Source of the DNA: Bugula neritina
Taxonomy: Eukaryota > Bryozoa > Gymnolaemata > Cheilostomatida > Bugulidae
Reading direction: 5' to 3'
Length of the DNA stretch: 64,000 bases
Assembly (NCBI GenBank): GCA_964035545.1
Contig: OZ037766.1
Coordinates: forward strand, 30,883,273 to 30,947,272
Shown: positions 40,984-41,063 of the stretch, piece by piece
Position numbering within the stretch: the first letter of the stretch is position 1
Layout of the letters: each line of letters starts with the position of its first letter
Notes under the pieces: model-generated
What the model was told of the DNA's origin: nothing
Database searches by the model: none
Seen by the model: only the letters and a program-made list of their open reading frames with translations
Translations under genes and position numbers: made by a program

Positions 40984-41063
40984 TGCGAAGGTGTGGGCCA
41001 TGGTACTCTGTTCTGTGCTGATGAGGGGACAAATCCCGAAACAGCTGCTGTCCACAGATTGAG
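40984..41063 (+). ncRNA. Hammerhead ribozyme, copy 1 (complete core), inside an intron
   Basis: Self-cleaving RNA motif on the + strand. Stem I is UCUGUG (41012-41017) with CACAGA (41053-41058), extended past a small internal loop by CUC/GAG. Core CUGAUGA is at 41018-41024. Stem II is GGGG/UCCC (41025-41028 with 41034-41037, one G-U) with loop ACAAA. GAAA is at 41038-41041. Stem III has four pairs counting A-U (41041-41044 with 41048-41051) and a 3-nt loop. The cleavage triplet GUC ends at 41052, so cutting is predicted between 41052 and 41053. All invariant hammerhead core bases are present. The short stem III fits the minimal hammerheads known from animal retroelements. It sits in intron 1 of right-hand gene 4, same strand. 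Confidence 0.93.

Follow-up and report, generated by a model that had tools for sequence, protein, structure and literature searches.

Metazoan non-LTR retrozymes, described from coral, mussel and axolotl, are small non-coding units that each contain one type I hammerhead ribozyme and are repeated in phase and in tandem. As far as the accessible text of their description extends, they have a G+C content below 50%, a predicted circle with strong self-pairing, and Penelope-like elements resident in the same genome (PMC7229834). The same text names Penelope-like elements as strong candidates for retrozyme mobilisation, proposes circular templates primed by target DNA or small RNA (without junction data of the kind given below), and reports cotranscriptional cleavage rates of about 0.8 per minute for the coral and 0.1 per minute for the mussel retrozymes (PMC7229834). 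Among the Penelope-like elements, the Poseidon protein of Anolis cleaves AT-rich DNA and begins reverse transcription at a position internal to its RNA, according to the available part of that study (PMC11167929). The bryozoan Bugula neritina offers hundreds of copies for a direct test of how retrozymes return to the genome.

The window analysed here is the whole 64,000-nt stretch at positions 30,883,273 to 30,947,272 of the forward strand of B. neritina contig OZ037766.1 (assembly GCA_964035545.1). It contains two copies of a putative retrozyme, one of them inside a gene, and the features concerned are the following.

40648..41758, + strand: predicted intron 1 of the host gene, with donor GT at 40648 and acceptor AG ending at 41758 (alignment of four paralogous genes)
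40886..40977, no strand: (AT)46 tract to the left of the insert (sequence)
40978..41063, + strand: retrozyme remnant of 86 nt, comprising monomer positions ~197-271 and, from the following unit, positions 1-11 (aligned with the 271-bp monomer)
41006..41063, + strand: hammerhead ribozyme motif of type I, including the outer stem I (sequence, indexed fold and descriptor; sub-threshold in Rfam)
41064..41159, no strand: (AT)48 tract to the right of the insert, with the junction GATTGAG/ATAT (sequence)
41759..41881, + strand: exon 2 of the host gene, with the start codon at 41768 (sequence, paralogue alignment, protein match)
42094..42198, + strand: coding part of exon 3, with the stop codon TAA at 42196-42198 (sequence, protein match)
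24307..24498, - strand: second retrozyme copy, comprising monomer positions 98-271 and 1-15, with a degenerate stem III (GAAAAGGCTGCTGTC) (alignment)

The whole intronic insert, (AT)46-element-(AT)48, occupies 40886-41159; the alignment of this copy to the monomer starts at 40969 and takes in letters of the TA repeat. The second copy has the same right junction and runs into (TA)n at 24234-24310. It sits ~2 kb upstream of the first right-hand gene. The sequence-only reading of the window, which as a whole was partly supported, had overlooked both this second copy and the membership of the motif in a dispersed repeat.

As a sequence, the motif in the intron was confirmed to be a type I hammerhead, of which catalysis is a prediction. 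The core consists of CTGATGA (41018-41024) and GAA (41038-41040). Stem I comprises 6 bp (TCTGTG 41012-41017 with CACAGA 41053-41058), stem II pairs GGGG 41025-41028 with TCCC 41034-41037 (one G-U pair, loop ACAAA), and stem III comprises 4 bp (ACAG 41041-41044 with CTGT 41048-41051) closed by the 3-nt loop CTG, while an outer stem I pairs CTC 41006-41008 with GAG 41061-41063. In the indexed fold C17 corresponds to 41052, so that the predicted cut falls on the bond between 41052 and 41053. The invariant core CUGANGA...GAA...UH is present, stems II and III are closed and stem I is open, as in type I. The complete hammerhead proposed earlier, with its core letters, stems of 6, 4 and 4 bp and this predicted cut, was confirmed by sequence, fold and descriptor.

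The descriptor, which required the core together with stems I, II and III of at least 5, 4 and 3, respectively, matched once in the window when both strands were searched, and once in 300 dinucleotide shuffles. A looser pattern consisting of letters only matched four times in the window; 22 of 100 shuffles reached as many, and this count is therefore not significant. A covariance score below threshold had been named beforehand as an outcome that would speak against the hammerhead, and this was what the search returned: none of the Rfam models attained its gathering score with the window motif (RAGATH-1-hammerhead, 15.2 of the 56.3 bits needed; Hammerhead_3, 12.8 of 48.5 bits), and at the gathering and E-value thresholds the output consisted of TA-repeat noise and weak hammerhead scores. 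We judged the Rfam hammerhead models to be insensitive, and their threshold to be a limit of the model rather than a defining trait. In the isolated 60 nt, the minimum-energy fold was a competitor of the hammerhead (-15.0 vs -12.1 kcal/mol, a gap of 2.9), and the folding energy of the motif was ordinary (z -0.96). The hammerhead call was kept despite both results: the motif is a recurrent feature of a repeat family, and the folding model used takes no account of tertiary contacts.

That family was identified by searching the genome (215.8 Mb, 295 contigs). The window motif was found to be a piece of a 271-bp non-coding element that occurs in in-phase tandem and in hundreds of genomic copies. 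Locus L007 displays the whole element, with the 271-bp unit repeated head to tail and in phase, and with one hammerhead per unit; the unit search listed copies on contigs C1 to C9, in arrays of up to four units. The loose core pattern was present at 427 places genome-wide, compared to 35 for the reversed control, and a near-identical motif was contained in 157 extracted rows (overlapping loci being counted repeatedly), 49 of them distinct. Across these 49 copies, compared by eye for compensatory changes, the stems are near-identical, and the main recurrent change is one-sided, from G-U to G-C in stem II. A chance match to the hammerhead core would agree with the lack of an Rfam match over threshold and with the ordinary folding energy of the motif, but set against these copy numbers, and against the single match of the full descriptor in 300 shuffles, it is the least probable of the explanations considered here.

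The unit has a G+C content of 0.428, and the longest stop-free run in the tandem unit is 45 codons, which leaves no long open frame. A circle of the unit folds at -98.5 kcal/mol (z -7.9 vs 100 shuffles), with 72% of its bases paired, and a non-catalytic pairing is preferred over the hammerhead by 5.1 kcal/mol. Within an array, the median difference between units is 0.55% (42 pairs, including three from an array that was retrieved both as L012 and as L076, and one that compares two separate insertions in L071); between units of different arrays it is 3.6% (2850 pairs). Its size of 271 bp (the class spans ~150-450 bp), type I hammerhead and in-phase tandem organization match those of retrozymes, as do its G+C content below 50%, its strongly self-paired predicted circle and the co-residence of Penelope-like elements. 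On these sequence traits the element is a new family of metazoan non-LTR retrozyme, a known kind of element. The class has no LTR, PBS or PPT and is characterized by abundant circular and linear RNA; the Bugula family is assigned to it from genomic DNA. Most of the examined copies lie in TA microsatellites and have a near-constant right junction, which distinguishes them from the retrozymes described previously; the term "microsatellite" is absent from the accessible text of that description (PMC7229834). A literature search covering titles and abstract openings, with subscription papers mostly outside its reach, retrieved no report of TA-targeted retrozymes. A search of viral contigs with the hammerhead core gave no match. 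A divergent relative, ~81% identical and with changed letters in stems II and III, was observed at L042:1135-1444 (reverse-strand coordinates); it is without a long TA tract and perhaps represents an older subfamily.

The junctions of the element with the surrounding DNA were examined in the family-like places among the first 100 listed of the 427. These gave 60 loci, all on contigs C1 and C2, which together with the window copy formed 64 groups; two small minus-strand fragments without a ribozyme end (L083 and L097) were dropped, leaving 62 arrays at 61 loci, in a sample selected through an intact ribozyme core. At their right ends, all 62 arrays exit the unit no more than ~15 nt beyond the cut. 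The junctions were (i) GAG/ATAT in 23 arrays, (ii) GAGG/TAT in 19, (iii) GA/TATA in 12, and (iv) of other types in eight. The GAG/ATAT and GAGG/TAT junctions track two unit subfamilies reading GATTGAGATATTACGC and GATTGAGGTATTACGC, which indicates that the element extends to wherever its sequence begins to match a TA repeat. In a further set (L002-L038 and L101), 27 of the 28 listed right flanks, identical ones being merged and four belonging to arrays already among the 62, conformed to this near-constant right end. The exception, the minus-strand copy of L006, consists of unit positions 12-271 followed by 1-27 and exits at position 27 into non-TA DNA. Exact cut-site words numbered 449 genome-wide: 304 rows had (TA)5 directly after the word (some GA/TATA sites were doubled, as in six of the 100 rows displayed), 42 of the 449 words continued into the next unit, and roughly a quarter belonged to neither of these exact classes.

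TA repeats of at least 12 nt adjoined 49 of the 62 arrays on the right (13 were without) and 35 on the left; 30 arrays had them on both sides and eight on neither. At distances of over 500 bp, such repeats account for 0.35% of bases; in the window they account for 1.07%. Any target-site duplications, which in retrozymes exceed 4 bp when present, would be masked by the TA repeats at the junctions. The left ends are spread across the unit; 13 of the 62 fall within positions 10-13, corresponding to one full turn (binomial p ~3e-8, calculated for a stretch of 8 nt). Five arrays (L046, L049, L077, L091 and L096) have their left end at unit position 168, where some structure might halt the reverse transcriptase.

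These junctions bear on the idea that the family is a TA-rich satellite, propagated by unequal exchange without retrotransposition and carrying its hammerhead by descent. Tandem units, TA repeats on both sides and the likeness of units within an array would all be expected of such a satellite; its hundreds of dispersed places, the near-constant right junction, the variable left ends and the many arrays shorter than one unit would not, and we regard it as very improbable.

A query with the reverse transcriptase motif of Penelope-like elements gave 45 matches genome-wide, many of them within long open frames. The element at L100:1149-3347 (+) has a 733-aa frame with an RVT_1 domain (E 1.9e-10) and is flanked by inverted partial repeats (943-1198 vs 3810-4377). 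Its C-terminus carries, as read by eye, a YVG motif in a cysteine-bearing context and is a candidate GIY-YIG-like domain; the endonuclease call rests on this motif reading, since Pfam GIY-YIG is absent from the L100 frame and was found at one place only in the genome, outside the Penelope-like elements. Both Penelope-like loci that were read (L100 and L101) contain a minimal hammerhead motif composed of CTGAAGA and GAAATATT or GAAATATC, and that of L100, CTACT-CTGAAGA...GAAATATT-AGTAG, is unlike that of the retrozyme. In each of these loci, one copy of an end motif, CTCGTATACCTATTTATA, abuts (TA)n, while a second copy in L101 does not abut TA. Exact end motifs ran exactly into (TA)n in 70 of 261 cases, and in none of the reversed controls; not all 261 need be outer ends, as the listed ones are often arranged in close opposite pairs. 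The genome therefore contains a Penelope-like element whose sequence ends point to the same kind of target as that of the retrozyme, and the connection with retrozymes and Penelope-like elements carrying minimal hammerheads, named in the sequence-only reading, has its counterpart in both resident families. Some Penelope-like elements target other microsatellites.

At L101:521-917, a single TA tract is common to a retrozyme array and an oppositely oriented Penelope-like end. When the 124 listed retrozyme loci were compared with 69 (TA)n-abutting Penelope-like ends (one end on contig C107 was left out), three loci lay within 1 kb of an end and seven within 5 kb, compared to 0.08 and 0.40 expected under uniform placement. 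This proximity is evidence that the two families have a target in common, but not that they use one enzyme. Since the resident Penelope-like elements have hammerheads near their (TA)n-abutting ends, the motif might in principle be the terminal region of such an element, with no separate retrozyme involved. Their hammerhead, however, is different and minimal, the 271-bp unit lacks a long open frame, and a comparison with the 61 retrozyme loci, each spanning ~2.4-3.3 kb, gave no match for the L100 protein and one weak match of 34 nt for the L100 end (L087); we consider this origin hardly credible.

The reading that we favor, and hold to be probable, is that the window motif is a stub of a retrozyme whose circular RNA was copied at nicked TA repeats, most likely by a Penelope-like enzyme. 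In the cycle that we infer, with its cleavage, circularity, priming and enzyme, read-through transcripts of tandem units would cut themselves at every hammerhead, and a host RNA ligase would circularise the resulting 271-nt units. The circle would then be copied at nicked TA microsatellites by a reverse transcriptase, most probably that of the co-resident Penelope-like element. The usual start would be the AUAU (or UAU) located ~11-15 nt beyond the cut, which can pair with a TA-repeat primer, and copying would proceed round the circle, producing stubs in less than one turn, full copies in one and in-phase arrays in several. In the case of the window copy, it would have halted after about 86 nt, having landed in intron 1.

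A near-constant start, variable stops and multi-turn arrays fit a circular RNA copied from one priming site. A linear monomer fully processed by its ribozyme would have its 3' end at the cut, so right ends located 10-15 nt past this point exclude it as the template; circles and uncut multimers are both suitable. The likeness of units within an array also counts in favor of the cycle, but could stem from later tandem duplication. The junctions constitute fairly direct, although purely genomic, evidence for the mode of retrozyme insertion. Counted against the proposed cycle are the predicted folds, which favor non-catalytic pairings in the 60 nt, the circle and the whole insert, as well as the sub-threshold Rfam scores, the L006 exception, the 13 of 62 arrays lacking a right-hand TA repeat of at least 12 nt, the cut-site words belonging to neither exact class and the second L101 end motif, which does not abut TA. 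The near-constant start, the countable turns and a target like that of the resident Penelope-like element make the published proposal of circular templates and Penelope-like machinery directly testable.

The proposed start resembles that of Anolis Poseidon, in which, according to the available text, a hammerhead also lies near the start of reverse transcription, the start is internal to the RNA and the target is AT-rich; the Poseidon start differs in that it lies in an AC-rich stem loop and is not homologous to the cut DNA (PMC11167929). The start site of the retrozyme can pair with its TA target, and the retrozyme, unlike Poseidon, codes for nothing. A second parallel is provided by the Terminons of bdelloid rotifers, which, in the available text, possess a template repeat complementary to the target repeat and adjoining a hammerhead motif; they are giant and located at telomeric repeats, in contrast to the 271-nt retrozyme at TA repeats (PMC12477314). 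A hammerhead placed beside a template that matches the target repeat would tie retrozymes to Terminons.

The reverse transcriptase of Penelope-like elements is a relative of telomerase. It is conceivable, albeit doubtful, that this enzyme itself writes much of the TA tract by recopying the AUAU beside the hammerhead before moving on. The excess of arrays whose TA repeat (12 nt or more) is confined to the right side (19, compared to five with one confined to the left; p 0.007), the median length of 66 nt of these right-only tracts and the lack of a TA tract at the site in three paralogues of the host gene speak for such writing; the 30 of 62 arrays with TA on both sides and the existence of long TA tracts without an element speak against it, the latter in a comparison of only 11 tracts that is biased because long tracts are bigger targets. 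If TA tracts were written in this way, retrozyme and Penelope insertions would seed new TA microsatellites and not merely land in old ones.

The host of the window insertion is one of four right-hand genes that have their promoter, exon 1 and exon 2 in common. As read earlier, the hammerhead is in sense orientation to the gene, lies within intron 1 and is present in one of the four genes only, which was borne out by the alignment of the paralogues: in the other three, the corresponding site of intron 1 is free of both the ribozyme and a TA tract, and the placement of the insert in intron 1 is supported by this alignment of sequences. The predicted cut lies 404 nt past the donor and 706 nt ahead of the acceptor, so that the ribozyme would be transcribed before splicing of intron 1 can finish; if cleavage preceded splicing, the non-coding exon 1 would be severed from the coding exons. 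Each sense insertion into an intron would thus be a possible extra self-cutting site for the host.

A self-cleaving ribozyme motif located in an intron, on the same strand as the gene, is also found in Cpeb3, where, according to the accessible text, the ribozyme acts in vivo and its inhibition raises CPEB3 expression (PMC10919898); the window motif, by contrast, is a predicted ribozyme. By analogy with this mouse gene, the window ribozyme might have been retained as a means of tuning this peptide gene copy through self-cleavage of its pre-mRNA, a proposal favored by the sense orientation, the intact core and stems and the timing of transcription relative to splicing. We find it unlikely, as none of the three paralogues carries the ribozyme and competing folds are predicted to be favored. 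Furthermore, the ribozyme letters of the window copy equal the commonest form among the extracted copies, so the insertion looks young, and its youth would explain the intactness. A young neutral insertion is, judging from the sequences, a simpler account than gene regulation, and an effect of the insert on the host gene, possible in view of the cleavage rates of the coral and mussel retrozymes and of the Cpeb3 case, is more likely to be slight. The Cpeb3 ribozyme belongs to another ribozyme class.

In the predicted fold of the whole insert, the two TA tracts can pair as a long AU helix enclosing the element; the tip of this structure adopts another pairing, over which the hammerhead is disfavored by 7.3 kcal/mol. 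The 72-aa product of the host gene, labelled a defence-type peptide in the sequence-only reading, had no Pfam family over the cut-off, and a protein search gave one weak match (E 0.057), which leaves that label unconfirmed. The gene forms part of a cluster of small peptide genes located on both strands, at 2457-11669 (-) and 19048-42198 (+), with a common exon 2 and a signal-peptide-like start.
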